From: an uncultured Chromatiaceae bacterium
GTDB lineage: Bacteria > Pseudomonadota > Gammaproteobacteria > Enterobacterales > Alteromonadaceae
Reading direction: 5' to 3'
Assembly: GCA_946482325.1 (NCBI GenBank)
Contig: CAMLRA010000034.1
Coordinates: forward strand, 1 to 30,033
DNA length: 30,033 nucleotides
The position numbers and the translations under genes are program-made. The notes beneath the pieces are model-generated. The model had not been told where the DNA came from and searched no databases. It saw only the letters and a program-made list of their open reading frames with translations. Below are positions 68 to 24,401 of the stretch, piece after piece; the stretch's first letter is position 1, and each line of letters starts with the position of its first letter.

Positions 68-89
68 CTGCTGTTTAAAGGAGTAAATG

Positions 90-2651
90 ATGTCAGCCAA
101 TATCGCTAAACGTCGCCTGGATTTTCAGCGCGCCACTTATCAGGTCAGTCAGATTGAACTGGAGTTTGAACTAAATCCAACAGCTACCAGAGTTTTGGCG
201 GTCAGTCAGCTGCAGCGCGCTGTAGCAGGAGCGGATACGCTGTGGCTTGATGGCCAGCAACTGACGTTGGTATCGCTGGAAGTTAATGGTGAGGAATGGA
301 CACAGAAAACTCAAAATGACCACGGAATTTTGCTGTCCGGTTTGCCAGAGCAGTTTGAACTGAAGGTGCGCACTGTGCTGGACCCGGCAGCCAATTCAGC
401 CTTAGAGGGGCTGTATCTGTCGAACGGTGCTTATTGTACCCAATGTGAAGCCGAAGGTTTTCGCCGCATCACTTATTACCCGGACCGGCCAGATGTGATG
501 GCGGTGTTTACCACACATATTATTGCCGATGATAAGATCCCGTTTTTATTATCCAATGGCAATCTGATAGCGAAACATCAGCTGGCTGACGGTCGGGTGC
601 GCGTCAGCTGGCATGACCCATTTCCAAAACCCTGTTATTTGTTTGCTTTAGTTGCCGGCGATTTTGATGAACTGTGCGGCGAATTTGTCACCCATAGCGG
701 CCGGCACGTTGCATTGAAATTTTATGTCGATAAAGGTCAGGGCACTAAGGCATCCTTTGCGCTGGAAGCGCTCAAGCGCGCGATGCGGTTTGATGAAGAA
801 GTCTACGGTCTTGAGTATGACCTCGATATCTACATGGTCGTCGCCGTCGATTTCTTTAATATGGGGGCGATGGAAAACAAAGGGCTGAATGTCTTTAACA
901 GTAAGTTTGTGCTGGCTGACGCTGCTACAGCAACAGACACTGACTACTTCAACATCGAAAGTATTATCGCACACGAATATTTTCATAACTGGACCGGCAA
1001 CAGAGTCACATGTCGTGACTGGTTTCAGCTCAGTTTAAAAGAGGGGCTGACGGTATTCCGCGACCAGCAATTCAGTGCCGCGATGGGTTCTGCCACTTTG
1101 TGCCGGATAGATGCGATTAAGACGATACGCACCGCACAGTTTGCCGAAGATGCCAGCCCGATGGCTCATCCAATCCGGCCGGATGTGGTGGAGGAGATGA
1201 ACAATTTTTACACCGTGACAGTGTATGACAAAGGCGCTGAAGTGATCCGGATGCAGCATACATTGCTGGGCGCTGAAGGCTTTCGCCGCGGTATGGACTT
1301 GTACTTCCAGCGACATGACGGCCACGCGGTGACCTGTGACGATTTTTTAGCCGCGATGCAGGATGCGAATCAGGTTGATTTAGCGAAGTTCAGTGTGTGG
1401 TACAGCCAATCCGGAACTCCAGAATTAACCGCGAAGCTTATGCAAACCGAAACCGGCGTACAACTCCATCTGCAACAATTTACGCCGGCAACGGCAGATC
1501 AGACAGAGAAAAAGCCTTTATTGTTACCGCTGCGTTATGAACTACACGATGCGACAGGTCGGGTGCAGACCGGTATCTTGCAATGTACGGAACAGCAGCA
1601 AACTTTTAGTTTTGACGGTCTGAAAATGCCCGTGGTACCGGTATTGCTGGCTGATTTCAGTGCGCCGGTGAAACTGAACTACGCCTATCAGACTGAAGAA
1701 TTATTGTATCTGTGTCAGCAGGCACTGGACGGGGTGGCACGCTGGGATGCGATGCAACAGTTGTGGTCAGATTTGATCCGCCAGTCGGTGCAACAGCAGC
1801 ACATATTGCCAGTCCCCGTAAAAATGCTGGAAGTTTTGGCACAGTTAATTCGTCAACCTCTGCCAGATCAGGCGTTTACGGCGGAATTGCTGACGTTGCC
1901 CGGCTTTGACAGCCTGGCCGAGCAGTACGAACAAATCCCGGTGGATCTGATCCTGCAAGCACTAGAGCATTATCAACAGCAACTCGCCGAACTTTTTGCT
2001 GCCGACTGGCTTAACTTGTATCAGCGGTTGCAACCACCTCCTTATGCGTACACCGAGGCGCAGGTTGGTCTGCGGTCGCTGCGTAATACCGCGTTGCGCT
2101 ACCTGCTGCGTGTGAAAGAAACGCCGGAGCAGCTATGGCAAGGTCAATTTGCCGATGCTGACAATATGACTGACAGACTGGCGGTGCTGCAGGCTGTAGT
2201 CAAAGCCGGGCATGGCGCCACGTCACAGTTGCTGCAGAAATTCCTGCAACAGTATGGGGACAACGTGCAGCTGTTTGATAAACATTCTGCGCTGGTTGCC
2301 TCAATCCCTGACCACAGTGTGTTTGCGTTGATGGACCTGGTCGAGCAAAGTGGTTCCTTTGACTGGAAAAATCCAAACCGGGTGCGGGCTTTATATGCGG
2401 TATTTGGTCAGCAAAACCCGGTGATGTTTCATCAGCCTGACGGCAAGGGATACCAGCGTCTGGCTGGCGTGATTGCCAAAGCCGACAGTATCAATCCGCA
2501 GCTGGCATCGCGACTGGTGACGCCGCTGCTATCGTTCCGGCGCTTTGAGCCAAAACGTCAGGCGCAGATGCGCGCAGCGCTTGAAAAACTCATGCAGCAA
2601 CAACTGAGTCCGGATCTCAGTGAAAAGTTGAACAAAGCACTGAATGGCTGA
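90..2651 (+). CDS. pepN: Aminopeptidase N (M1 family zinc metallopeptidase)
   Basis: PepN removes N-terminal residues from peptides in the cytoplasm and is the major broad-specificity aminopeptidase of gammaproteobacteria. The 853-residue product matches the family length (about 870 in E. coli). Visible hallmarks are the substrate-anchoring GAMEN motif at residues 259-263, the zinc-binding HEYFH at 295-299 followed by NWTGNR, and the third zinc ligand Glu in LKEG near 318. These sit within two residues of the E. coli positions. There is no signal peptide. Two ATG codons are adjacent (87 and 90). The second is chosen because it lies 6 bases from the AAAGGAG ribosome-binding site at 77-83, against 3 bases for the first. 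The 3' end overlaps the DUF2835 gene by 8 bases, so the two are probably translationally coupled. The C-terminal helical domain appears intact. Confidence 0.97.
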   Translation: MSANIAKRRLDFQRATYQVSQIELEFELNPTATRVLAVSQLQRAVAGADTLWLDGQQLTLVSLEVNGEEWTQKTQNDHGILLSGLPEQFELKVRTVLDPAANSALEGLYLSNGAYCTQCEAEGFRRITYYPDRPDVMAVFTTHIIADDKIPFLLSNGNLIAKHQLADGRVRVSWHDPFPKPCYLFALVAGDFDELCGEFVTHSGRHVALKFYVDKGQGTKASFALEALKRAMRFDEEVYGLEYDLDIYMVVAVDFFNMGAMENKGLNVFNSKFVLADAATATDTDYFNIESIIAHEYFHNWTGNRVTCRDWFQLSLKEGLTVFRDQQFSAAMGSATLCRIDAIKTIRTAQFAEDASPMAHPIRPDVVEEMNNFYTVTVYDKGAEVIRMQHTLLGAEGFRRGMDLYFQRHDGHAVTCDDFLAAMQDANQVDLAKFSVWYSQSGTPELTAKLMQTETGVQLHLQQFTPATADQTEKKPLLLPLRYELHDATGRVQTGILQCTEQQQTFSFDGLKMPVVPVLLADFSAPVKLNYAYQTEELLYLCQQALDGVARWDAMQQLWSDLIRQSVQQQHILPVPVKMLEVLAQLIRQPLPDQAFTAELLTLPGFDSLAEQYEQIPVDLILQALEHYQQQLAELFAADWLNLYQRLQPPPYAYTEAQVGLRSLRNTALRYLLRVKETPEQLWQGQFADADNMTDRLAVLQAVVKAGHGATSQLLQKFLQQYGDNVQLFDKHSALVASIPDHSVFALMDLVEQSGSFDWKNPNRVRALYAVFGQQNPVMFHQPDGKGYQRLAGVIAKADSINPQLASRLVTPLLSFRRFEPKRQAQMRAALEKLMQQQLSPDLSEKLNKALNG

Positions 2652-3187: not shown

Positions 3188-5326
3188 ATGAACAAAAGGC
3201 CTTTAGCCTTCACCAAAAAGCCACTGGTGCTTGGTGTCGCGTCTGCACTGTTAGCCTTGTCTGCAACGTCCATTCAGGCAGCCAGCGTCACGCTGGGTGA
3301 GGATGTCGAAGTTGTATTTGACTCAACCTTTTCATATGGTGCCAGCTGGCGGGCAGAAGACCGCAACTGGGACACCATCAGTAAAGTCAACCATCCGCGT
3401 TTTAACTGGACCGGTTATAACGCCGCCACCAACGTGATTTATCCTTCTTCAGAAATTTGGGCCCAGCCTGGTGGTTACTCATCAAACGGTGATGCCGGTA
3501 ACCTGAACTACGACAAAGGCGATATTTTCTCCGAACTGTTTAAAGGCACACACGAGTTATCGATCACCAAAGGCGACTTTGGTTTGTTTACCCGCTTTAT
3601 GTATTTCTACGATGCCGCACTGATGGATAACGATGGTGCTTACACCAATCCTGTCTCTGGCAATCGTGTTGATCCATGCCAGGATGACGATGCCCGTGAC
3701 TTAGCCTGTCGCGATGTTCGTTTACTCGACGCTTATGTGTTTGCCAACTTTGCGCTGAATGATGGCGCCAACCCGCTGTCGATTCGCGTCGGTGAGCAGG
3801 TACTGAGCTGGGGTGAAAGTACATTAATCCAGCACGGCATTAACATCACGCCAATCGACGTAGGTATCGCCCGTCTGCCTGGTGCTGACTTAAAAGAGGC
3901 TTATATTCCGGTTGGTATGGCCTGGGCGTCTTTGGGTCTGACCGAGCAATTGTCTGCTGAAGTGTTTTACCAGTACGACTGGCAGAACAGCTATCTGCCG
4001 GTGCCTGGCACTTATTTCTCCACCAACGATTTCGCCGGTAAAGGCGGTTACAACCAAAACATTCAGTTAGGTTTTGCCGGTAACCCGGATCTGGACCTCA
4101 GCACTTTACTGGCTGGCCTGAATGGCATTGGTAACAGTGTTAAAGCGGCAATGGCCGTGTTGCAAAATCCAGCAGCTTCGGCAGCACAAAAAGCAGCCGC
4201 ACAGGGGAGTTTGACTCAGCTTTCAGCGGCGTACCTGGCTTATCCAACCAAAGTGACGTTGCGGCCAAAAGGCGATGCCGGTGAAATTGAACCAAGCGAT
4301 TCTGGTCAGTACGGTCTGAAGCTCGAATACTTCTCACCTGAACTCGGTGACACCGAGTTTGCGCTGTACCATATGAACTATCACAGCCGTACACCGGTGA
4401 TTTCTGGTATAGCTTCTGACTTCCGTACTGCGGCAATTCAGTCTGATATTGCCTACATGGCAGCGAATACACTGACAGCGGATAATGTCAGTAACCTCAA
4501 AGCAATGTCCAAAGGCTTAATTGAATATCCGGAAGACATCAAACTTTATGGCTTTAGCTTTAATACCACTTTAGAAGGCACGTCAATCGCCGGCGAGCTG
4601 GCATATCGTCAGGATGAACCGCTGCAAATTGATGACGTGGAAATTCTGTATGCTGGTATGCCGGAACAGTTGGCAAACGCCGGTATTCGTCCTGACTTAG
4701 CTGGTATTTCGCAAATTGGCCGTTATGACGGTAAAAAAGTACAGCCAGGCCAGTTTGCACAGGGTTATATCCTGAGCGATACCATGCAGGCGCAATTAAC
4801 TGTGACGCATTTGTTTGGCCCGGTTCTGAACACTGACAACTTCACTGTGCTAGCCGAGATCGGTGGTATCGATATTAAAGATATGCCGGCACAGGATGTA
4901 TTACGTCTGAACGGTCCAAACACTGACCGCAGCGGTTATCCTCTGATGGGTACCAATGCGCAAGGCCAGCTGATCCTGAAAACCGGTCTGCACACTGGTG
5001 TATCAAACGGCGCGGAAACCAACCCGTTCCCGACTAAATCAGCCTGGGGTTACCGTCTGGTTGCCATCGCCAACTACAACAACGTATTGGCCGGTGTGAA
5101 CCTGACGCAACGTCTGACGTTCTCGCATGACGTGAACGGTATTACACCAGATCCGCTGTTTATGTTCTCAGAAGACAAAAAAGCCCTGAGTTACTCATTG
5201 GCTTTTGACTATCTGAACGCCTGGTCAGCGGAATTATCTTACAACGCGTTTTTCGACGGTGTAGGCACAACAAATAACACTGAAGACCGCGATTTCGTGT
5301 CTTTTAACATCAAATACTCTTTATAA
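3188..5326 (+). CDS. DUF1302 family outer-membrane-type protein
   Basis: A 712-residue secreted protein. A classic signal peptide (NKR start, hydrophobic core LGVASALLALSAT, cleavage near IQA-AS) precedes a long mature part dominated by alternating polar and aromatic strands, as in outer-membrane beta-barrels. The segment GEQVLSWGEST followed by HGINITPID is the block by which I recognise DUF1302. The C-terminus, FNIKYSL, is beta-strand-like. ATG 3188 is chosen because a strong purine-rich ribosome-binding site (AGGGGGGAGA, 3171-3180) sits 7 bases upstream and the signal peptide begins right there. A TTG start at 3125 would put 21 unrelated residues before it. The DUF1329 gene follows after 19 bases, a pairing seen in many proteobacteria. 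A role as the outer-membrane component of a hydrophobic-compound transport system is inference; the substrate is unknown. Confidence 0.88.
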   Translation: MNKRPLAFTKKPLVLGVASALLALSATSIQAASVTLGEDVEVVFDSTFSYGASWRAEDRNWDTISKVNHPRFNWTGYNAATNVIYPSSEIWAQPGGYSSNGDAGNLNYDKGDIFSELFKGTHELSITKGDFGLFTRFMYFYDAALMDNDGAYTNPVSGNRVDPCQDDDARDLACRDVRLLDAYVFANFALNDGANPLSIRVGEQVLSWGESTLIQHGINITPIDVGIARLPGADLKEAYIPVGMAWASLGLTEQLSAEVFYQYDWQNSYLPVPGTYFSTNDFAGKGGYNQNIQLGFAGNPDLDLSTLLAGLNGIGNSVKAAMAVLQNPAASAAQKAAAQGSLTQLSAAYLAYPTKVTLRPKGDAGEIEPSDSGQYGLKLEYFSPELGDTEFALYHMNYHSRTPVISGIASDFRTAAIQSDIAYMAANTLTADNVSNLKAMSKGLIEYPEDIKLYGFSFNTTLEGTSIAGELAYRQDEPLQIDDVEILYAGMPEQLANAGIRPDLAGISQIGRYDGKKVQPGQFAQGYILSDTMQAQLTVTHLFGPVLNTDNFTVLAEIGGIDIKDMPAQDVLRLNGPNTDRSGYPLMGTNAQGQLILKTGLHTGVSNGAETNPFPTKSAWGYRLVAIANYNNVLAGVNLTQRLTFSHDVNGITPDPLFMFSEDKKALSYSLAFDYLNAWSAELSYNAFFDGVGTTNNTEDRDFVSFNIKYSL

Positions 5327-5345
5327 GAAGGGACGAGACAGAATT

Positions 5346-6704
5346 ATGAAAAAACTCACCCTGTTATCGAGCGCCATTGCGCTGGTACTGAGCTGCTCTG
5401 CAGCTGCAAAAATTAGCCCGGATCAGGTCGCCCGTTTGGGTGCTGATCTGACACCGCTGGGTGCGGAAAAAGCCGGTAACAAAGACGGTTCTATCCCGGC
5501 CTGGGAAGGTGGTATCACATCAGCGCCGGCTGGTTACAAGGCCGGTGACCATCACCCGGATCCATTTTCTGGTGATAAGGTACTGTTTACTATCGATAAA
5601 TCGAATCTGGCTAAATATAAAGATACATTATCTCCAGGCCAGTTAGCGCTGTTTGACTTGTACCCGACTTACAAGATGAACGTGTATCAGACCCGCCGCA
5701 CTGCGTCATACCCGCAGTATGTCTACGATGCGACCAAAAACATCGCCGGCAAAGCGGAATTAGTGCAGGGCGGTAACGGTATTATCAATGCTGCTATTGG
5801 TATTCCGTTCCCAATACCTGCCAATGGTCTGGAAGCGATCTGGAACCATACTGTGCGTTATCGTGGTGTTGCCGCGACGCGTAACGGTGGTCAGGCTGCA
5901 CCAACTGCAACCGGTGATTACACGCTGATCGGTTTTGATGAACAAATCATGTTCAAATATTCTGATAAAGCAGCAACTGCAGAAGCCTTGCAGGCGGAAA
6001 ATATCCTGTTCCGTTTCAAACAAAGCGTCACGACACCAGCCCGTCTGGCCGGTACTGCGCTGTTAGTGCATGAGACCATGGACCAGGTGAAAACACCACG
6101 TCAGGCCTGGACTTATAACACCGGCCAGCGTCGTGTCCGCCGCGCACCAAACGTCGCCTATGATGCGCCGGGTACGGCGTCAGACGGCCTGCGCACGACT
6201 GATGACTTCGATATGTTTAACGGCTCACCAGACCGTTACAACTGGAAACTCGTTGGTAAAAAGGAAATGTACATTCCGTACAACAGCTACAAGCTGCACA
6301 GTAAAGATGCCAAGTATGCGGACATCTTAAAACCAGGTCATATCAACCCTGAGTATGTGCGCTGGGAAAAACACCGCGTTTGGCAGGTTGAAGCTACGTT
6401 AAAAGACGGGATGCGCCACGTTTATGGCAAGCGCGTGTTCTTCATTGATGAAGACAGCTGGCAAATTCATGTGGCAGATTTGTACGATGCGCGCGGTGAA
6501 TTGTATCGCGTTGCCGTCGCGCACGGTCTGAACTACTACGAAGTGCCAACGCACTGGAGTACGCTGGAAGTCTATCATGATCTGAATTCACGCCGTTACA
6601 TCGCTATCGGTCTGGATAACGAAGACAAAATGTATGATTTCTCAGTGAAATTGTCTGACAACGACTTCACACCAGCAGCGCTGCGTCGTGAAGGCACGCG
6701 GTAA
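5346..6704 (+). CDS. DUF1329 family periplasmic protein (LolA-like fold)
   Basis: A 452-residue exported protein. The signal peptide MKKLTLLSSAIALVLSCSAAA probably ends at an AAA-K site. The Cys at position 17 gives a poor lipobox, so a lipoprotein is possible but less likely. The mature start (ISPDQVARLGADLTPLGAEK), AGNKDGSIPAWEGG, the central AWTYNTGQRRVRRAPNVAYD and the FDMFNGSPDRYNWKLVGKKE region are features I associate with DUF1329. The family is thought to share the open beta-sheet fold of LolA, LolB and RseB that cradles lipids. It sits 19 bases after the DUF1302 gene and its stop is followed closely by a strong terminator, so DUF1302-DUF1329 form a two-gene transcript. A periplasmic lipid-carrier role is inferred from fold and neighbours, not proven. 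Confidence 0.88.
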   Translation: MKKLTLLSSAIALVLSCSAAAKISPDQVARLGADLTPLGAEKAGNKDGSIPAWEGGITSAPAGYKAGDHHPDPFSGDKVLFTIDKSNLAKYKDTLSPGQLALFDLYPTYKMNVYQTRRTASYPQYVYDATKNIAGKAELVQGGNGIINAAIGIPFPIPANGLEAIWNHTVRYRGVAATRNGGQAAPTATGDYTLIGFDEQIMFKYSDKAATAEALQAENILFRFKQSVTTPARLAGTALLVHETMDQVKTPRQAWTYNTGQRRVRRAPNVAYDAPGTASDGLRTTDDFDMFNGSPDRYNWKLVGKKEMYIPYNSYKLHSKDAKYADILKPGHINPEYVRWEKHRVWQVEATLKDGMRHVYGKRVFFIDEDSWQIHVADLYDARGELYRVAVAHGLNYYEVPTHWSTLEVYHDLNSRRYIAIGLDNEDKMYDFSVKLSDNDFTPAALRREGTR

Positions 6705-6720
6705 GGCAAAGTAGAACGAA

Positions 6721-6752
6721 AAAGCGGTTGGCAACTTGCCAACCGTTTTTGT
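6721..6752 (+). terminator. Strong intrinsic terminator inside the envelope cluster
   Basis: An 8-bp perfect stem CGGTTGGC / GCCAACCG (6725-6732 and 6738-6745) has a 5-base loop. It is flanked by A residues on the left and TTTTTGTTT on the right, so it could work in both directions. It lies 16 bases after the DUF1329 stop and 30 bases before the YCF48-like start, which separates abundant DUF1302/DUF1329 mRNA from the downstream pair. Any TTG start at 6728 for the next gene would fall inside this stem and can be dismissed. Confidence 0.85.
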
Positions 6753-6781
6753 TTCAAATCTCATCTCGAGTAAAGACTCTA

Positions 6782-7804
6782 ATGAAGTTTAAATTATTAT
6801 CCGGCCTGAGTTTGTTGTTTACCTTATGGCCAGCGCTGGCTGAAACCAGCATCAAACCGCAAAGTGCTTATCTGCTGCCGCATGCAGAAAAATCAGTGCT
6901 GACTGATCTCGTGCGTGTGTCAGCAGATATGTTGGTGGCTGCCGGGGAGCGCGGCCATATTTTGCTGAGCAAGGACGGTAAACAGTGGCAACAGAGCCCA
7001 ACGCCCCTGCAGTCGAATCTGAATTCAGTATTTTTTGTAAGTCCCAGCCATGGTTGGGCGGTCGGCCATGACGCCAGTATTATCGCAAGTCAGGATGGCG
7101 GTAATACCTGGCAGTTGCAGCAGTTTTTACCAGAGCTGGATAAACCACTGTTTGATGTGTATTTCACGGATGAAAAACAGGGTTTTGCGGTCGGGGCCTA
7201 TGGCCTGTTTTACCGCACCAAAGATGGTGGTGACTCCTGGCAACAGGAATATCATGCAGAGCTCGCGAATACTGATGATCAGGCGATGCTGGCTGAATTG
7301 AAAGATTCAGACCCTGAAGCTTATCAGGCCGAACTTGGCTCAGTGCTGCCGCACATTAACCGGGTATTTGCGGCAAAAGACCGCTTAGTAATGGTCGGTG
7401 AGGCCGGTTTCTGGGCGACCAGTACCGACGGAGGCAGCAGCTGGCAGCGTCAACCGGAGTTTTACAATGGTTCCTTGTTTTCTGTCGCCCAATCACCGCA
7501 GGGTACTTTGTTTGCTGTTGGCCTGCGTGGCCACGCCTTTCGCAGCAGCGACAATGGCCAGAGCTGGCAACAACTGAGCTTATCTTCGCCGGCGACACTG
7601 AACTCAGTGGTTGCGGCAGGCTCTCAGATCTGGTTGTTCGGCAACAGTGGCGTGATTTTTCAAAGCCTTGATGATGGCCAGAGTTTTCAGCTGATCCCAC
7701 AGACTGAGGGTAAAGCGGTGCTCAATGGCCTGGTGGTTGGTACGGATTTAGTGCTGGCGACTGAAGTTGGGATCAAAACAGTGCAACAAGTGGTAAGCCA
7801 ATAA
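6782..7804 (+). CDS. YCF48-like secreted beta-propeller protein (photosystem II assembly factor-like)
   Basis: A 340-residue protein with a clear signal peptide (MKFKLLSGLSLLFTLWPALA-ET). It is followed by about six propeller blades with the BNR/Asp-box-like signature [ST]xDGGxxW: SQDGGNTWQ, TKDGGDSWQ, STDGGSSWQ, SSDNGQSWQ and a degenerate SLDDGQSFQ. The repeats alternate with GWAVG/GFAVG/LFAVG strands, the hallmark of YCF48/HCF136-type propellers. In non-photosynthetic bacteria such proteins act as periplasmic scaffolds of unknown partner. ATG 6782 is chosen because the signal peptide starts there and because upstream starts fall in the terminator stem. The ribosome-binding site is weak. The transporter gene follows after 2 bases, so the two are co-translated. 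It may be an accessory subunit of that transporter. Confidence 0.88.
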   Translation: MKFKLLSGLSLLFTLWPALAETSIKPQSAYLLPHAEKSVLTDLVRVSADMLVAAGERGHILLSKDGKQWQQSPTPLQSNLNSVFFVSPSHGWAVGHDASIIASQDGGNTWQLQQFLPELDKPLFDVYFTDEKQGFAVGAYGLFYRTKDGGDSWQQEYHAELANTDDQAMLAELKDSDPEAYQAELGSVLPHINRVFAAKDRLVMVGEAGFWATSTDGGSSWQRQPEFYNGSLFSVAQSPQGTLFAVGLRGHAFRSSDNGQSWQQLSLSSPATLNSVVAAGSQIWLFGNSGVIFQSLDDGQSFQLIPQTEGKAVLNGLVVGTDLVLATEVGIKTVQQVVSQ

Positions 7805-7806
7805 TT

Positions 7807-10125
7807 ATGAGTGCAAATCGTATTATCAATAAATGTGAGTACGCGCTGTTCCGCCATCGTGGTTTTGTGGTGATAGCATTCGTACTGGCAACTTTGTTCC
7901 TGTTGTTCAAAGCCAGTCAAATCAAGCTGGATGCTGCTTTTACCAAGAATATTCCTTTAGCACATCCGTACATGCAGACTTATATGAAGCATGCCAAAGA
8001 TTTTGGTGGCGCCAATAATATTCTGATTTCGGTCTGTGACACGTCCGGCAACATTTTTAACCCGAATTTCTTTGATACTTTCCGCAAAATCCACGATCAG
8101 GTGTATTACATGCCGGGTGTAGACCGGGTGTTGGTTAAATCTTTATTCAGTCCCAGTACCCGTTTTGTTGAGGTCGTCGAAGACGGTTTTGCCGGGGGGC
8201 CGGTCATTCCCGCTGATTTCACGTCGGATGAAAAGGGCCTGGCCGTTGTACGGCAAAACGTCGACAAAGCCGGTATCGTTGGCCGGATGGTGGCAGATGA
8301 TTACAGCTGCGCCATGGTGACGGCGCAGTTGCAGGAAGTAAATCCGGACACGCTGGAAAAACTCGATACCATCGCTTTTGCCAGTCAACTGGAAAAAGAA
8401 GTCCGTGGCCAGTATGAAAACGACAAAATCACGGTTCACATCATTGGCTTTGCCAAGATGGTTGGTGATGTGGCGCAAGGGGCTAAAGGCGTTCTGGTGT
8501 TCTTCGCTGTGGCAATCCTGATCACAGCGCTGATGGTTTATATGTTTTCGCGTTCCATGAAGCTGACCCTACTGCCCATTGGTTGTTCTCTGATTGCCGT
8601 GATCTGGCAGATGGGCTTGTTGACGGTGGTGGGCTTTGGTATTGACCCGATGTCGATTCTGGTGCCTTTCCTGATTTTTGCCATTGGCGTCAGCCACGGT
8701 GTGCAGATGATCAACGCGACCGGTAAAAGCGTCGCTGAGGGCCTGGACGCCAAAACTGCGGCGCAGGCGAGCTTTCGCAAACTGTTGATCCCGGGTGGCG
8801 TGGCGTTATTGTCCGACACTGTTGGCTTTATCACTTTGTTAGCTATTGATATCGGCGTGATCAGGGAGCTTGCCATCACGGCAAGTTTAGGTGTTGGGGT
8901 TATCATTCTGACCAACCTGATTTTGTTGCCAGTGCTGATGTCCTACATCAAATTCAGTGACAAATATGTGGCGGCAGTATCCGCGCCGACGCCTAAAGCA
9001 GATAAATTCTGGTATCTGCTGTCAGCCTGTACTGAGAAGAAAGTCGCAGCACCAATTTTGTTGCTGACGGCCGCGCTGTTTGTGTTTGGTTATCAGCAAA
9101 GTAAGGAGCTGAAAATCGGCGACTTACATCCAGGCGCTGCTGCGCTGCACTCCGACTCCCGCTATAACCAGGACACTTTCCTTATCACAGATCGCTATGC
9201 GATTTCTGTCGATTATATCAATGTGATGGTCGAAACTGACGCCAATGGTTGTACCTTCCATCCAATTATGGAAAAAATCGACCAGTTTCAATGGCAGATG
9301 GAAAATGTGCCAGGGGTGCAAAGTGCGGTGTCATTGGCTTCAGTATCTAAGACCATTAACGCAGCTTTCAACGAAGGTAACGTAAAGTGGCGGGTGCTGC
9401 CACGCACCACGGAATCGCTGGTACAGTCGTCCAGCCGGGTGGAAACCAGTACCGGCCTGTTAAACCCGGATTGTTCGGTGATGCCGGTCATTCTGTTCCT
9501 GCAGGACCATAAAGCCGAGACTATTGAAAAAATAGTAGCGGAAGCCAAACGCATCGGCAAAGAATTAGGCACAGACCAGACCAAATTTATGTTGGCGTCC
9601 GGCCCGGTTGGGGTGATGGCGGCGACTAATGAAGCGGTTGCTGCAGCGCAGGACCCTATGACCTGGTATGTCTACGCTGCGGTGATTGCCCTGTGTTTAT
9701 TGAGCTTCCGGTCAGTGCGGGCCACCACGGCGGTGATCATTCCGCTATATGTGGTGACTATGCTGGCTACGGCGCTGATGACTTATCTGGAAATTGGTCT
9801 GACGGTCTCGACATTACCTGTGATTGCGCTCGGCGTTGGTATTGGCGTGGATTACGGTATTTATATCCTGACCAATATGACACAGCCGCTACGCGATGGC
9901 GTACCACTGCGCACCGCGTATTTTAATGCGCTGAAGTCAACCGGTAGTGCCGTGCTGTTTACTGCCGTCACGCTGGCGATTGGCGTCAGCACCTGGGTAT
10001 TCTCTGCACTGAAATTCCAGGTTGATATGGGTATTCTGCTGACCTTCATGTTTGTCGTAAACATGTTAGGGGCCGTGTTTGTCCTGCCGGCACTGGCAGC
10101 CTTTTTCTGGCCACAGCGTAAATAA
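7807..10125 (+). CDS. MMPL/RND-superfamily transporter (putative lipid or hydrophobe exporter)
   Basis: A 772-residue inner-membrane protein with the two-fold RND layout: a first helix near residues 18-36, a large periplasmic loop to about 225, a five-helix bundle to about 395, a seventh helix near 415-430, a second periplasmic domain, and a final five-helix bundle from about 620 to the end. The two equivalent TM4 motifs are visible: FAIGVSHGVQMINA in the first half and GVGIGVDYGIYILTN in the second. The second carries the Asp that couples proton flow in RND/MMPL proteins. At about 770 residues it resembles MmpL- and HpnN-type lipid transporters more than the 1,000-residue AcrB drug pumps, and no membrane-fusion protein gene is adjacent. 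It starts 2 bases after the YCF48-like gene. Transport of a lipid-like substrate toward the outer membrane is inference from class and context. Confidence 0.9.
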   Translation: MSANRIINKCEYALFRHRGFVVIAFVLATLFLLFKASQIKLDAAFTKNIPLAHPYMQTYMKHAKDFGGANNILISVCDTSGNIFNPNFFDTFRKIHDQVYYMPGVDRVLVKSLFSPSTRFVEVVEDGFAGGPVIPADFTSDEKGLAVVRQNVDKAGIVGRMVADDYSCAMVTAQLQEVNPDTLEKLDTIAFASQLEKEVRGQYENDKITVHIIGFAKMVGDVAQGAKGVLVFFAVAILITALMVYMFSRSMKLTLLPIGCSLIAVIWQMGLLTVVGFGIDPMSILVPFLIFAIGVSHGVQMINATGKSVAEGLDAKTAAQASFRKLLIPGGVALLSDTVGFITLLAIDIGVIRELAITASLGVGVIILTNLILLPVLMSYIKFSDKYVAAVSAPTPKADKFWYLLSACTEKKVAAPILLLTAALFVFGYQQSKELKIGDLHPGAAALHSDSRYNQDTFLITDRYAISVDYINVMVETDANGCTFHPIMEKIDQFQWQMENVPGVQSAVSLASVSKTINAAFNEGNVKWRVLPRTTESLVQSSSRVETSTGLLNPDCSVMPVILFLQDHKAETIEKIVAEAKRIGKELGTDQTKFMLASGPVGVMAATNEAVAAAQDPMTWYVYAAVIALCLLSFRSVRATTAVIIPLYVVTMLATALMTYLEIGLTVSTLPVIALGVGIGVDYGIYILTNMTQPLRDGVPLRTAYFNALKSTGSAVLFTAVTLAIGVSTWVFSALKFQVDMGILLTFMFVVNMLGAVFVLPALAAFFWPQRK

Positions 10126-10190: not shown

Positions 10191-10218
10191 AAATGGCCGA
10201 AAGGCCATTTTGTTATTT
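10191..10218 (+). terminator. Intrinsic terminator of the transporter transcript
   Basis: AAATGGCC (10191-10198) pairs with GGCCATTT (10203-10210) around a stable GAAA tetraloop, followed by TGTTATTT. The compact stem with a GNRA loop is a plausible plus-strand terminator about 70 bases after the transporter stop. The T tract is interrupted, so strength is uncertain. Confidence 0.6.
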
Positions 10219-10396: not shown

Positions 10397-13300
10397 ATGG
10401 CACTGATAGACGGTCAACCATCTGTACTACTACAAAACGTAAGCAAGTTAATTCGTCAGAAAGTTAAAGATCAGGTCGACCTGGTTGAAAAATTCGCCTT
10501 CACCTTATATGGCAACGTTGCACATGACGACCTGGTCGGTCGGATTGACAGCGACTTATATGGCGCAGCATTAAGCCTGTGGCAGTCATTTAATGCCCAC
10601 CACAGTGACGACGCGATGATCCGGGTGTTTAACCCTGAAATCGCCAAACATGGCTGGGAATCGAAACACACTATCGTGGAGCTGGTGATCAAAGATATGC
10701 CGTTCCTGGTGGACTCGCTGCGGATCGCACTGAATCGCCATAACATCACGGCTCATTTGTTATTACATCATCCGCTGCAAACTTTCCGCGATGATAAAGG
10801 CAATATCACTGAATTCCATAAATTAGGTACAAAAGCCAACCCATCGACTAAACAAACGGTCTTCCATGTTGAAATCGACCGGATGACTGACAAAACGGCG
10901 ATGGACCAACTGACTGCAGAATTAGCTTCAGTGATGCAAGATGTGTCTTTGGCTGTTACCGACTGGCTACCCACGCGAGCCAAGCTGGAACAGGTGATTG
11001 CTGATTTACCGAAGAACGCCGGCTTAGCCTCTGCCGAACAGCTGCAACAAGCGACGGATTTCCTCAATTGGCTGGTGAAAGATAACTTTACGTTATTGGG
11101 TTACCGCCAGTACGCCATAGTACCGATCTCCGGCGACTACAAAATCGAAGGTATCGCTGATAGCGCGCTTGGTTTAATGCGCCGCAGCACATCGCGCGAT
11201 TTGATGTTAAGTGACCTGCCGGATGTAGCGCGTAAACAGGCGCTGAGTTCTGATTTACTGATCCTGACTAAAACTAACAACAAATCCCGCGTACACAGAC
11301 CGGCTTATATCGACTACATCGGTATTAAACGATTTGATGCCAAAGGACAAGTGGTGGGTGAAGATCGTTTCATCGGCCTGTATTCCAGTTCGCTGTACAA
11401 TAACAGTGCTGCCGACATTCCGCTGCTGAAAAACAAATTGGCAAAAGTGATGGAACAGTCAGGTTTTGCGGTCGGAACGCACGCTTATAAAGCGCTGCTG
11501 AACATTCTGGAAACATATCCACGCGATGAATTGATCCAGGCCGATCACGACGAACTGTTAGACGTCGCCACCGGCGTGCTGCAGATGCAGGAACGCGACA
11601 TGACACGGCTGTTTCTGCGTAAAGATGCCTTCGGCCGTTTTGTTTCTGCCATGGTCTATGTACCACGCGAACGTTACAACACACAGCTACGCAAAGACAC
11701 GCAAAAGATCCTGCAAGGCTTTCTTGGTAGCGATGAGCCGGTGGAATTTACCACTTATTTCTCTGAATCCGTGTTGGCACGCACCCACTATTTTGTGCGC
11801 ATCAACGACAGCACAGTCGAGTTCAATGTGAAAGAAATCGAACAAAATCTGATTGAAGCCGCCCGTACCTGGGAAGATAAACTGGCCACTGCACTGGTCG
11901 GCAGTTTTGGTGAAGTGCGCGGCCGTGAGCTTGGCAATAAATATGTCAATGCGTTTCCACGTGCATACAAAGACGAAATGCTGCCCAATGACGCCTTAGT
12001 GGATATCGCCAAGCTCGAAGCTTTGAGCGCTGATCATCCGCTGGAGATGCTGTTCTACCGGCCGCAGGAAGAATCTGCCGACAGCAAAGCAGTGCGCTTA
12101 AACCTGTTCCACAAAGACAGCCCAATCCATTTGTCTGATGTGTTACCGATGCTGGAAAACTTCGGCTTACGTGTTATCGGTGAAACGCCATACGCCGTGC
12201 GTTGTCCGGATGGTTCTGTTAGCTGGGTGCTGAACTTCAGCATGGAAGTGAACGGTAAAATGCCGGCCGATTTTGAAAAAGCCCAGCAGCTGTTCCAGGA
12301 AGGTTTTGATAAAGTCTGGAAAGGCGATTTAGAGGATGACGGTTTTAACCGCTTAATTCTCGGTGCAGGCCTGACAGGCCGTGAAGCGTCATTATTGCGC
12401 GCTTTTGCTAAATATAAACGCCAGATTGGCGGTACATTCAGCCAGGCTTATGTCGAATCAACTTTTGGCCGTTATCCGCAACTGGCCAATCTGCTGGTTA
12501 AACTGTTTAACAGCAAGTTTGATCCTGCAGCAACAGCCAGCAGCGATGCAACCGCTGCCATTGAAGCAGAGATCCTGGCGCAACTGGAACAAGTGGCCAA
12601 CCTCGATGATGACCGCATCATCCGTCGTTTCCTTGCCATTATTCAGGCCATGGTCCGCACCAACTATTTCCAGAACGCTGCCGATGGTTCGCAGAAACCA
12701 TATATCTCGTTCAAAGTGCGTCCGTCGCTGATCCCGGATATGCCACTGCCACTGCCATTCTTTGAGATTTTCGTGTATTCACCGAAAGTGGAAGGCGTGC
12801 ATTTACGCTTCGGTAAAGTGGCGCGCGGTGGTCTGCGCTGGTCAGACCGTCGTGAAGACTTCCGCACCGAAGTGTTAGGCCTGGTGAAAGCGCAACAAGT
12901 GAAAAATACGGTCATTGTACCGGTCGGTGCTAAAGGCGGTTTTGTCTGTAAAAAATTGCCAACCACAGGTGGCCGCGAAGCCTGGCTGAACGAAGGGAAA
13001 GCCTGCTACCGCACCTTTATCCGCGGTTTACTCGATATCACTGACAACATTATTGCCGGTGCTATTGTGCCGCCAAAATCAGTGGTGCGCCTGGACGAAG
13101 ATGACCCGTATCTGGTGGTTGCAGCCGACAAAGGCACCGCAACTTTCTCGGATATCGCCAACGGTATTTCGCTGGAATACAACCACTGGTTAGGCGACGC
13201 CTTTGCCTCGGGCGGCTCCAACGGCTACGACCACAAAGGTATGGGCATCACAGCCCGTGGTGGCTGGGAATCAGTCAAACGCCACTTCCGTGAAGTTGGT

Positions 13301-15235
13301 ATCGATTGTCAGACCACGGATTTCACCTGTGTCGGTATCGGTGATATGGCCGGTGACGTGTTTGGTAACGGCATGTTGTTGTCGGAACATATCCGCCTGC
13401 AGGTGGCGTTTAACCACATGCACATTTTTGTCGACCCGAATCCAAACGCGGCGGCATCTTTTGTTGAGCGTCAGCGCATGTTTAATCTGCCGACCTCAAC
13501 CTGGGATGATTACAACAAAGATCTGATTTCAGAAGGCGGTGGTATTTTCCTGCGCAGCGCCAAGTCCATTAAACTGACACCGCAAATGCAACAAATGCTG
13601 GGGGTTACAGTCGCCAGCCTGACGCCGAACGAATTTATCCGTGCGGCGCTGATGATGGAAGTCGATCTGATTTGGAACGGTGGGATCGGTACTTATGTGA
13701 AAGCCACCGATGAAACCCATGCTGAAGTCGGTGACCGGGCATCAGAACCGCTGCGAGTTAACGGTAAAGAAGTTAAAGCCAAGATCATCGGCGAGGGCGG
13801 TAACTTAGGAACCACCCAACGGGGCCGTATCGAATACGCGATGAACGGTGGCCGCATCAATACGGACTTTATTGATAACGTTGGTGGTGTCGATTGTTCA
13901 GACAACGAAGTCAATATCAAAATTCTGTTGAACGCCTTGGTTGCCAGCGGCGACATGACGCTGAAACAGCGCAATGACTTGCTGTACAGCATGACCAACG
14001 ACGTTGCAGACATCGTCATCAGTGATTGTTATCGCCAGACGCAGTCGATTTCAGTGTCGATGCTGTTAGGGGCTGAGCAACTGAAAGAATACACCCGCTT
14101 TATCCACGCGCTGGAGAAAGACGGTAAGCTGAACCGTGAGCTGGAATTCCTGCCAACGGACGAAGCACTGGCTGAGCGGATGGTCAAAGGCCAGGGCCTG
14201 ACCCGGCCGGAAATGTCGATTTTAACGGCATACGGCAAAATGGTGTTAAAAGAGCAACTGGTGACGCCAGAAGTGTCCGAAGCGCCATATTTCAAGCAGT
14301 TACTGCTGGGTGCTTTCCCGCCGGTGTTGGTAGAAAAATTTGCTGCAGAGATGGAAACCCATCCGCTGAAGGCTGAAATTATTGCGACTAAACTCGCGAA
14401 CATGCTCGTCAACGATATGGGCGCCAACTTCGTGCAGCGCATGATGGAAGAAACCGGTTCCAGCGTATCTGAAGTCGCCATCAGCTACGCTATTGCCCGT
14501 GACCTGTTTGACCTGCCAGGTATCTGGGGCAAACTGGAAGCGCTGGATAACGCAATTCCTGCCGATCTGCAGACGCGCTTACTATTCCAGTTACGCCGTA
14601 CCATGCGCCGCGTGACCCGTTGGTTCCTGCGTCATCGCAACAAGGCACTGAGCATCGCAGACACTGTTGAGTTCTTTAAACCTGCCCTGAGCCGTATCAG
14701 TGAAAAACTGGATACGTTACTGGCGCGTGCTGAAGCCGACTCACTGGCGCTGTATGCGCAGAAACTACAGGAACAACAAGTGCCGGCTGAAGTCGCTCGT
14801 TATATGGCACAGCTCAGCACAGTGTTTTCAGTCATGGATATCGCACAGGTTGCTGCGGCAGAGCGGGCTGACTTGCTGCTGGTGGCCGAAATCTACTTCA
14901 AGTTAGGCGATAAGCTGGATTTACACTGGTTCCTGGAGCAAATTACGCAACAACCGGTAGCGAACCACTGGCAGGCACTTGCACGAGCCTCGTACCGCGA
15001 AGAGCTGGACTGGCAACAACGCGCACTGGCGCAAGTGGTCGTGCACAGCTGCAACGGCAGTTGCGTAGCAGATGACGTGGTGGCTAACTGGCTGGTTGCT
15101 AACGACGCCATTCTGGCACGCTGGCGCCTGATGCTGGCTGAGTTCAAAACCACGAAGAGTCACGAATTTGCTAAGTTCTCAGTCGCGCTGCGTGAGCTGA
15201 TGTTATTAAGCCACCATTGTGATTCGGTGAAATAA
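10397..15235 (+). CDS. gdhB: NAD-dependent glutamate dehydrogenase, large (about 180 kDa) class
   Basis: The enzyme oxidatively deaminates L-glutamate to 2-oxoglutarate and ammonium using NAD, mainly for catabolism of glutamate-family amino acids. The 1,612-residue length matches the large class described in Pseudomonas and Streptomyces. A long N-terminal regulatory part precedes the catalytic core. The core shows RGGLRWSDRREDFRTEVLG near residue 810, VPVGAKGGFV near 845 with the Lys expected at the active site, the Rossmann motif VGIGDMAGDVFGNG near 978, and IGEGGNLG with NVGGVDCSDNEVN from about 1130. A C-terminal helical domain follows. Start ATG 10397 is chosen for its ribosome-binding site and because residues from MALIDGQPSV onward look like the family. 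The frame stays open upstream to 10193, but that stretch crosses a terminator. The gene is monocistronic, with terminators on both sides. Confidence 0.95.
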   Translation: MALIDGQPSVLLQNVSKLIRQKVKDQVDLVEKFAFTLYGNVAHDDLVGRIDSDLYGAALSLWQSFNAHHSDDAMIRVFNPEIAKHGWESKHTIVELVIKDMPFLVDSLRIALNRHNITAHLLLHHPLQTFRDDKGNITEFHKLGTKANPSTKQTVFHVEIDRMTDKTAMDQLTAELASVMQDVSLAVTDWLPTRAKLEQVIADLPKNAGLASAEQLQQATDFLNWLVKDNFTLLGYRQYAIVPISGDYKIEGIADSALGLMRRSTSRDLMLSDLPDVARKQALSSDLLILTKTNNKSRVHRPAYIDYIGIKRFDAKGQVVGEDRFIGLYSSSLYNNSAADIPLLKNKLAKVMEQSGFAVGTHAYKALLNILETYPRDELIQADHDELLDVATGVLQMQERDMTRLFLRKDAFGRFVSAMVYVPRERYNTQLRKDTQKILQGFLGSDEPVEFTTYFSESVLARTHYFVRINDSTVEFNVKEIEQNLIEAARTWEDKLATALVGSFGEVRGRELGNKYVNAFPRAYKDEMLPNDALVDIAKLEALSADHPLEMLFYRPQEESADSKAVRLNLFHKDSPIHLSDVLPMLENFGLRVIGETPYAVRCPDGSVSWVLNFSMEVNGKMPADFEKAQQLFQEGFDKVWKGDLEDDGFNRLILGAGLTGREASLLRAFAKYKRQIGGTFSQAYVESTFGRYPQLANLLVKLFNSKFDPAATASSDATAAIEAEILAQLEQVANLDDDRIIRRFLAIIQAMVRTNYFQNAADGSQKPYISFKVRPSLIPDMPLPLPFFEIFVYSPKVEGVHLRFGKVARGGLRWSDRREDFRTEVLGLVKAQQVKNTVIVPVGAKGGFVCKKLPTTGGREAWLNEGKACYRTFIRGLLDITDNIIAGAIVPPKSVVRLDEDDPYLVVAADKGTATFSDIANGISLEYNHWLGDAFASGGSNGYDHKGMGITARGGWESVKRHFREVGIDCQTTDFTCVGIGDMAGDVFGNGMLLSEHIRLQVAFNHMHIFVDPNPNAAASFVERQRMFNLPTSTWDDYNKDLISEGGGIFLRSAKSIKLTPQMQQMLGVTVASLTPNEFIRAALMMEVDLIWNGGIGTYVKATDETHAEVGDRASEPLRVNGKEVKAKIIGEGGNLGTTQRGRIEYAMNGGRINTDFIDNVGGVDCSDNEVNIKILLNALVASGDMTLKQRNDLLYSMTNDVADIVISDCYRQTQSISVSMLLGAEQLKEYTRFIHALEKDGKLNRELEFLPTDEALAERMVKGQGLTRPEMSILTAYGKMVLKEQLVTPEVSEAPYFKQLLLGAFPPVLVEKFAAEMETHPLKAEIIATKLANMLVNDMGANFVQRMMEETGSSVSEVAISYAIARDLFDLPGIWGKLEALDNAIPADLQTRLLFQLRRTMRRVTRWFLRHRNKALSIADTVEFFKPALSRISEKLDTLLARAEADSLALYAQKLQEQQVPAEVARYMAQLSTVFSVMDIAQVAAAERADLLLVAEIYFKLGDKLDLHWFLEQITQQPVANHWQALARASYREELDWQQRALAQVVVHSCNGSCVADDVVANWLVANDAILARWRLMLAEFKTTKSHEFAKFSVALRELMLLSHHCDSVK

Positions 15236-16340: not shown

Positions 16341-16389
16341 TCTGATCAAGTCTTGCTAGTGCAAAACAGTATTTAAAGCCTTGATCAGA
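16341..16389. repeat. 10-bp inverted repeat between pyrD and zapC
   Basis: TCTGATCAAG (16341-16350) and CTTGATCAGA (16380-16389) are exact reverse complements 29 bases apart, each containing the palindrome TGATCA. There is no T tract after it, so it is not a normal intrinsic terminator. It could be a two-site operator or a long RNA hairpin between the two genes. Confidence 0.5.
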
Positions 16390-16434
16390 TTGCGTTATAA
16401 CAGCGTTATCAAAAAATCTGTGAACGGGTTTAGT

Positions 16435-16941
16435 GTGACAGAACCGCATTTTGACTGGCAATGGTGTGAGCAACAAGGCCAGCTGTGTTTAAAAACAGCT
16501 CAGGGGTTACACTGCACGCCAGTGCCGTGCAACAGCGATGTGCAGAAAGGCGATTTCACCTTGGGGCAGGCCGAGCTTTACTGGCAATGCCTGTTTGCAC
16601 TGGAAGCTTTGCATTGGCCGGCAGTGGCAGTTTTTGCCGCTTGTATTGACGCTGTGGCGCAAATTGAGTTTGGAGTCGCTGACGCGCACAAAAGCTTCTA
16701 TCTGCAAAACTCACATAGCCACCAGCATCCGGCGCCTTTTGATTTAGTGCAGCTGTGTGGTCGTAATCAGGCACTGGCATTAGTGCTGGATTCAACAGCG
16801 ACGCAAAGCCGGCTGATGCTGCTTTCCGAGCTTGAAACTCTGACTGGCCGGGTGTTTCACGCCGGCCATAGTTTCAGCAGTCTGCATGACAGACTAAGTC
16901 TGTATCAGCCCCCTCAAACGCCCTGGCGTAAATCAGCCTGA
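16435..16941 (+). CDS. zapC: Cell division protein ZapC
   Basis: ZapC binds FtsZ at mid-cell and favours bundling of its filaments. The identification rests on position directly after pyrD, as in E. coli, and on a colinear pattern: an early WQW with a following LCLKTAQGL (E. coli WRW and MMLDLANGM), GDFTLGQAELYWQCLFALE in the middle, and a C-terminal LMLLSELETLTGRVFHAG followed by LHDRLSLY. The frame is open from a TTG at 16381 (186 residues). The GTG at 16435 (168 residues) is preferred because it places the WQW motif about as far from the N-terminus as in E. coli ZapC (180 residues), and because the upstream part overlaps the inverted repeat. The ribosome-binding site is weak (GGG near 16427). 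Start choice is uncertain; the family call is good. Confidence 0.85.
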   Translation: MTEPHFDWQWCEQQGQLCLKTAQGLHCTPVPCNSDVQKGDFTLGQAELYWQCLFALEALHWPAVAVFAACIDAVAQIEFGVADAHKSFYLQNSHSHQHPAPFDLVQLCGRNQALALVLDSTATQSRLMLLSELETLTGRVFHAGHSFSSLHDRLSLYQPPQTPWRKSA

Positions 16942-23777: not shown

Positions 23778-24401
23778 ATGAAACAGGTTTTTACGTTAAC
23801 GGGTCTTCTGCTGGCAGCTGTATGTTCTGGTGTTGTCAGTGCGGTTGAAACGGCTGCAGAGCAGCTTAAATACAAACTGGCGCGACTAAACAGTTATCAG
23901 GCCAGCTTCCAGCAAACGGTCACTGACGCAACGAATAAACAGGTGCAAACTGGTGAAGGCTACCTCAGCCTGAAGCAGCCAGCGTTATTTCGTTTTGAAA
24001 CCATCAGCCCGACACCAAATTTGCTGATTGGCGACGGCCGGACTTTGTGGCACTACGACGAAACGCTCGAAGAGCTGAAAGTCTATGATGCGGCGAAAGA
24101 GGTTGATAAAACGCCTTTTGTGCTGCTGACTTCCAGCGATGCCAAACTATGGGCTTTGTACGATGTTGTCGGTCAGGGGGAAACTTTTGTTATCACACCT
24201 AAGGACAAAAATAATCCGGTACAAAAACTGACGTTGCAATTTTCCGGGGTCGGCCTCGCCAAAATGGCGGTGGCCAGTCAAGATGGGCAGACCAGCAGTT
24301 TTGAATTTATTGCGATGCAGAGTAATGTCAGTATCGACAGCGCACAGTTTAAATTCAGCCCGCCGAATGGCGTTGATATCGTTGATTTACGTGGCAAGTG
24401 A
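23778..24401 (+). CDS. lolA: Outer-membrane lipoprotein carrier protein LolA
   Basis: LolA is the periplasmic chaperone that receives lipoproteins from LolCDE and hands them to LolB. The product has 207 residues, including the signal peptide [22 protein letters not shown]. The mature part shows the family patterns [53 protein letters not shown] and the closing [17 protein letters not shown]. The ATG follows the ftsK stop with no gap (TAA-ATG), and rarA overlaps its last 4 bases, so ftsK, lolA and rarA are translationally linked, as in E. coli and relatives. Confidence 0.97.

Follow-up and report, generated by a model that had tools for sequence, protein, structure and literature searches.

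How do hydrophobic molecules cross the Gram-negative periplasm, and which way does a given set of envelope proteins move them? Movement of hydrophobic substrates across this compartment is poorly understood. A four-gene operon in a stretch of 30,033 nucleotides from an uncultured Chromatiaceae bacterium (contig CAMLRA010000034.1; hereafter the window) raises the question. The operon encodes DUF1302, DUF1329, YCF48, and MMPL family proteins, likened here to AmeABCD of Castellaniella defragrans. A survey of genomes shows that the system consists of two modules that are mostly separate: a DUF1302-DUF1329 pair and a YCF48-MMPL inner unit. In the window, the four open reading frames (ORFs) are as follows.

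3188..5326, + strand: DUF1302 predicted outer-membrane barrel (AmeA-like), 712 amino acids from the ATG at 3188; Pfam DUF1302, 534.6 bits
5346..6704, + strand: DUF1329 predicted LolA-fold periplasmic carrier (AmeB-like), 452 amino acids; Pfam DUF1329, 538.7 bits, plus LolA_like
6782..7804, + strand: YCF48-type periplasmic propeller (AmeC-like), 340 amino acids; PSII_BNR PF14870, 86.3 bits, 3e-24
7807..10125, + strand: MMPL/RND inner-membrane transporter (AmeD-like), 772 amino acids; MMPL PF03176, 82.1 bits, 4.5e-23

The ORFs follow one another on one strand, separated by 19, 77, and 2 bases, and all four Pfam assignments exceed the curated cut-offs. The coordinates and Pfam matches confirm the cluster as the original prediction had described it. 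The first three proteins have N-termini that look, by eye, like signal peptides. The absence of a membrane-fusion protein or TolC from the neighborhood, also claimed there, stands: neither type had a match among the 15 window proteins scanned with Pfam, and a classical HAE1 tripartite drug pump was rejected on this ground. The closest named proteins and loci come from Rheinheimera (MMPL, 96% to a named protein; loci L001 and L002, 98% and 97%).

We drew 120 genomes evenly from Pseudomonadota to see how widely these families recur. AmeD-type MMPLs were present in 12 and formed a distinct, bimodal score class (at least 746 bits, the next match being 205) in a comparison that did not include the AmeD sequence itself. 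DUF1329 above 300 bits occurred in exactly the same 12 genomes, and the set with DUF1302 above 300 bits adds one further genome to these. Two random sets of 12 genomes would coincide with a chance of about 1e-16, a figure that is too extreme because the genomes are related. Genomes tend to have both modules or neither; likewise, all four genomes of the Rheinheimera texasensis family that lack the MMPL have no full-length DUF1329. This survey bears out the earlier claim that the four families recur together in proteobacteria. At 18 AmeD-type MMPL loci, YCF48 (searched for in the 12 positive genomes) lay within 8 kb in 17, DUF1329 in 15, DUF1302 in 15, and all three in 14. The propeller, cast as a scaffold in the original prediction, is therefore seen to accompany the MMPL. 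Distances between 10 clusters correlated for every family pair (r 0.62-0.79), and at most 5 of 2000 shuffles reached values as high.

Copy numbers and linkage separate the two modules. For these counts, DUF1302 matches below 100 bits were omitted, as were DUF1329 matches below 170 bits, which comprise the short LolA-like ones and a further two in G039 at about 100 bits. Of the 52 DUF1302 genes in the 12 genomes, 49 have a DUF1329 gene within 4 kb, and 35 of these 49 pairs lack an AmeD-type MMPL within 9 kb. Inner units number 1 to 3 per genome, while DUF1302 reaches 14. The richest genomes have DUF1302 to MMPL counts of 8:1, 10:3, 10:3, and 14:2, and the four whose locus has both pepN and NAD-glutamate dehydrogenase (GDH) flanks have 1:1. 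The boundary between the modules, the DUF1329/YCF48 junction, is the widest gap of the operon (median 77 bases, versus 11 and 2 at the others, with ORF starts assigned mechanically). It is also where the operon lies split in genome G030 and where the genes lie on opposite strands in G089. In G030, whose MMPL has 97% identity to a Stutzerimonas protein, pepN is followed by YCF48 and MMPL, and the DUF1302-DUF1329 pair is unlinked (L084, L085). This is the layout that we take Pseudomonas putida to have. One locus (L094, 5711-17234) carries a tandem array, DUF1302-DUF1329-DUF1329-DUF1302-DUF1329-YCF48-MMPL, in which a single motor is preceded by two barrels and three carriers.

Shorter and more distant relatives were also seen. 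In 15 of the 120 genomes a short DUF1329-type gene lies within 4 kb of a DUF1302-like gene. At the two of these whose neighbors were scanned, L108 (4515-9486) and L110 (5218-11973), the operon comprises TetR, LolA_like (PF17131), a distant MMPL, and a DUF1302-like barrel, the MMPL gene sitting between the LolA_like and DUF1302-like genes; YCF48 had no match among the genes scanned at these loci. Barrel, LolA-fold carrier, and MMPL therefore recur together in a second, distant branch, possibly a little described one.

Which direction does this architecture favor? TolC-based exporters have one outer channel common to many inner pumps; TonB-dependent uptake combines many outer parts with a shared inner one. 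Here, too, the outer parts are many and the inner motors few, which resembles the uptake pattern, the opposite of TolC pumps.

We then considered what surrounds the accessory copies. Pfam was run on hand-picked neighbors: 20 proteins at eight of nine accessory MMPL loci (all but L096), 29 proteins at 11 unlinked pairs (L085, L093, L098, L099, L103, and L114-L119; ten belong to the 35 above and L103 comes from another genome), and one gene at L120. Catabolic-type neighbors occur at six of the eight accessory loci and comprise Rieske oxygenase, aldehyde or acyl-CoA dehydrogenase, acyl-CoA ligase, thiolase, and glyoxalase/dioxygenase-family or FAD enzymes. At the remaining two (L089 and L102), the single neighbor scanned is an ABC ATPase. 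An acyl-CoA ligase, thiolase, or acyl-CoA dehydrogenase gene lies within 3 kb of six of the 11 unlinked pairs (L093, L098, L099, L103, L115, and L118), and the neighbors scanned at L085, L114, L116, L117, and L119 include no such gene. Regulator genes lie near eight of the 11: MalT-type LuxR at L085, L093, L098, L099, and L114, LysR at L117 and L118, and TetR at L119.

Growth phenotypes come from published work. In P. putida, PP_0765 (DUF1302), PP_0766 (DUF1329), PP_2018, and PP_2019 are required for growth on Tween 20 (PMC10866462), and deletion of a Delftia DUF1329 gene impairs growth on phenanthrene (as cited in PMC13101534). Together with the copy numbers and catabolic neighbors, these phenotypes lead us to lean toward uptake. 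We hold with about even confidence that an AmeABCD-type system would work as a two-module, proton-driven uptake route for hydrophobes.

Export is the published view of AmeABCD. Hydrophobes in the outer leaflet of the inner membrane would be picked up by the MMPL and passed to DUF1329, and the DUF1302 barrel would let them out of the cell, which would protect the envelope. Modest data in the AmeABCD study point this way: the deletion mutant tolerated monoterpenes less well and, under carbonyl cyanide m-chlorophenylhydrazone (CCCP), accumulated slightly more Nile Red, whereas its real-time Nile Red efflux was nearly the same as that of the wild type (PMC6394551). The original prediction likewise had a hydrophobic molecule carried outward. 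That study speaks for its outward direction, but the copy numbers and catabolic neighbors speak for uptake, and the multiplied part here is the outer one. We consider export possible but unlikely.

The window copy itself is a conserved core locus, for which the following features are needed.

87..2651, + strand: pepN, the conserved upstream flank (Pfam), upstream in 75 of 76 complete loci
10191..10210, + strand: terminator-like hairpin 3' of the MMPL gene (pattern scan)
10397..15235, + strand: GDH, the conserved downstream flank (Pfam), downstream in 76 of 76 complete loci
23778-24401: canonical LolA (PF03548)

Conservation was assessed in 80 loci, the best 80 of 554 confirmed relatives obtained when a genome collection was searched with the MMPL alignment, and this set is for that reason biased to close kin. 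All four genes occur in the same order in 76 of the 80, a clustering far beyond chance. Contig ends interrupt three of the other loci (L019, L043, and L070), and the fourth, L072, differs. This Colwellia metagenome-assembled genome keeps pepN, YCF48, and MMPL and has no DUF1302 or DUF1329 ORF between pepN and YCF48 (7985-8840). A DUF1302-DUF1329 pair lies on another of its contigs, and an assembly effect is possible because DUF1329 fragments sit at two contig ends. In the phylum-wide survey, pepN flanks 9 of the 18 AmeD-type loci, in 9 of the 12 genomes, including a diverged genome with both pepN and GDH (L081). On the MMPL tree the pepN-linked copies cluster yet do not form one clade (2 changes), because other copies are interspersed with them; the deep forks are unsure, given some very long branches.

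Such conservation could mean that in Alteromonadales the core locus serves to transfer one of the cell's own lipids or fatty acids between the membranes, with catabolic roles confined to the accessory copies. The fixed position beside housekeeping genes fits this, as does the presence of the MMPL in 94 of 98 genomes of the Rheinheimera texasensis family. At order level, 65 of 148 genomes have a match at E 0.001 or better. Each of the first seven Alteromonadales genomes checked also has a single full-length DUF1329; among four more, Colwellia-type genomes, two carry 2 and 5 copies above 200 bits. Four family genomes do lack the core MMPL, however, so it is not essential for life. Their DUF1329 matches reach at most 26.2 bits per stretch, in frames of about 270-290 amino acids, with no full-length DUF1329; the DUF1302 search covered genomes other than these four. 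The Tween 20 phenotype also concerns an outside substrate, provided that PP_2018 and PP_2019, which we take to be YCF48 and an AmeD-type MMPL beside pepN, are orthologues. An endogenous housekeeping role is, in our judgment, improbable.

The four proteins might instead serve to install a hydrolase, or a protein that bears lipid, at the cell surface, growth on Tween depending on that enzyme. Lipoproteins are moved by LolA-type carriers, hydrolase genes adjoin L097 and L103, and the P. putida genes were initially suspected of hydrolase-related activity (PMC10866462). Against such an assembly role, neighbors vary by pathway, as for small-molecule transport, and the window encodes a canonical LolA. 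The DUF1329 carrier is therefore no replacement for LolA, a role that we had considered and rejected. We regard surface assembly as very improbable.

Other features of the window are less closely tied to the operon. Further downstream, Pfam identifies dihydroorotate dehydrogenase, an acyltransferase-family gene, alanine dehydrogenase, FtsK, LolA, an MgsA/RarA-type AAA ATPase, and seryl-tRNA synthetase. A 75-amino-acid ORF (2644-2871) overlaps the end of pepN ahead of the operon, and a 186-amino-acid ORF (16381-16941), between dihydroorotate dehydrogenase and the acyltransferase-family gene, had no match in the Pfam scan. The hairpin scan gave 21 sites versus 8.6 in shuffles, which is no evidence of function, and a scan for promoter patterns found no excess (10 versus 8.7 in shuffles).

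How might uptake proceed? The DUF1302 barrel would provide entry across the outer membrane for a hydrophobic or amphiphilic molecule, such as one of fatty-acyl, ester, terpene, or aromatic type. Predicted models support an 18-strand porin-like barrel. By Foldseek alone the superpositions were poor (TM-score to target about 0.5, root-mean-square deviation 10 or more), and the VIA-align figures for the barrel were better. No FadL-like barrel was among the 50 VIA-align matches listed, which excludes nothing, and the protein has no match to the OprD/Occ porin Pfam family. Sequence searches of solved structures returned no relative of DUF1302 and none of note for DUF1329.

The DUF1329 protein would then ferry the molecule over the periplasm. 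Models support a LolA fold, in that the predicted structure matches LolA-family proteins, and the earlier suggestion of this fold is upheld to that extent. The loaded carrier would dock on the YCF48-MMPL unit. The YCF48 protein matches the solved Ycf48 structure 2xbg at 1.6e-22 and has four strict Asp-box motifs. The inner unit would pull the cargo into the inner membrane using the proton gradient, possibly through the second of two MMPL motifs.

8692..8706, + strand: S-H-x-x-Q motif, residues 296-300, in transmembrane helix 4 by analogy, not by prediction
9850..9855, + strand: D682-Y683, candidate proton relay, in transmembrane helix 10 by analogy

SH.VQ and GVDYG are present in all 80 loci, and SHxxQ and GVDY in all 16 clusters aligned. 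Solved structures gave the MMPL only partial matches by sequence, to MmpL and other RND proteins. The handover from DUF1329 to MMPL can be likened to that of sterol from NPC2 to NPC1. Barrel-carrier pairs would thus be exchangeable, substrate-specific front ends and YCF48-MMPL a shared motor, the window locus being the core form with both modules in one operon. Tentatively, and short of even confidence, we extend this to a TonB-like logic in which many substrate-specific pairs serve one inward, proton-driven RND motor with NPC1-like mechanics. The pepN-linked core would be ancestral in Gammaproteobacteria and the P. putida Tween system its split form.

Several observations weigh against two-module uptake. 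The modules have exceptions: no DUF1302 lies within 4 kb of 14 of the 62 DUF1329 genes, one genome has six DUF1329 and one DUF1302, the pepN locus of G077 is without DUF1302, and DUF1329 is missing from one G069 locus. Unlinked pairs may use a different inner-membrane partner, or none, and some of the 12 genomes hold more distant MMPLs. G076 has a DUF1302 (L109, 7681-9474, 443 bits) without a full-length DUF1329 or AmeD-type MMPL, the sole exception to the co-occurrence. The housekeeping neighbors around the window copy give no clue to a substrate. RND pumps usually export, and AmeABCD, the sole transport study of the family, was interpreted as efflux.

If two-module uptake is true, the many genes of the DUF1302 and DUF1329 families would gain a function, their presence in catabolic islands would be explained, and there would be an RND protein that works as an importer. 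Single-copy core loci like that of the window offer a simple genetic test.

How, then, does the locus compare with known systems? HpnN and BstA are lipid movers of the RND/MMPL superfamily, as the window MMPL may be, and to our knowledge they have no DUF1302 or DUF1329 partners. The window MMPL scores 61.5 bits against HpnN (cut-off 751.85) and 34 bits against BstA (cut-off 1400), and a hopanoid or sterol transporter was rejected because both scores are far below the cut-offs. Its score against HAE3 (TIGR00921), 155 bits, is also below cut-off (351.9). Among DUF1302 proteins, PA3923 binds laminin, with no bearing on transport, and MetJ controls a DUF1302 gene in Kangiella.

The families are familiar from aromatic degradation. 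The same four are controlled by the phenol regulators AphR, AphS, and AphT (PMC6449761), and DUF1302 and DUF1329 genes adjoin a phenol-hydroxylase cluster (PMC7012976). In the anaerobic benzene degrader ORM2a, a highly expressed "Nanopod" cluster shares a porin-like protein, DUF1329, YCF48, and MMPL with the window but has two extra genes between; its direction is unconfirmed (PMC13101534). In P. putida, phenotype ties DUF1302 and DUF1329 to a periplasmic protein and an efflux-type transporter, at two separate loci rather than one operon. Predicted contacts are weak for PP_0766 with PP_0765 and PP_2019, and strong for PP_2018 with PP_2019 (PMC10866462).

The closest counterpart is AmeABCD, which comprises DUF1302, DUF1329, COG4447, and a HAE3 RND protein in a composition and order conserved among relatives, described there as a conserved cassette lineage (PMC6394551). 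The window has the four families together, in the order A-B-C-D on one strand, with a HAE3-like RND protein. AmeA was likened to OpcA, whereas the DUF1302 model of the window resembles an 18-strand porin. The ame genes belong to a monoterpene island, whereas the window copy lies among housekeeping genes between pepN and GDH; placement in a catabolic island is not a necessary feature of the lineage. The original prediction knew of no established substrate. The system is not without prior study: the cassette with its deletion phenotype, and the families in aromatic regulons, were already published. Neither the pepN-linked core locus nor the front-end and motor model is described in the parts of the DUF1302/DUF1329 literature examined. 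The gene set is not a new kind, AmeABCD being its published form; what is new here is the survey.
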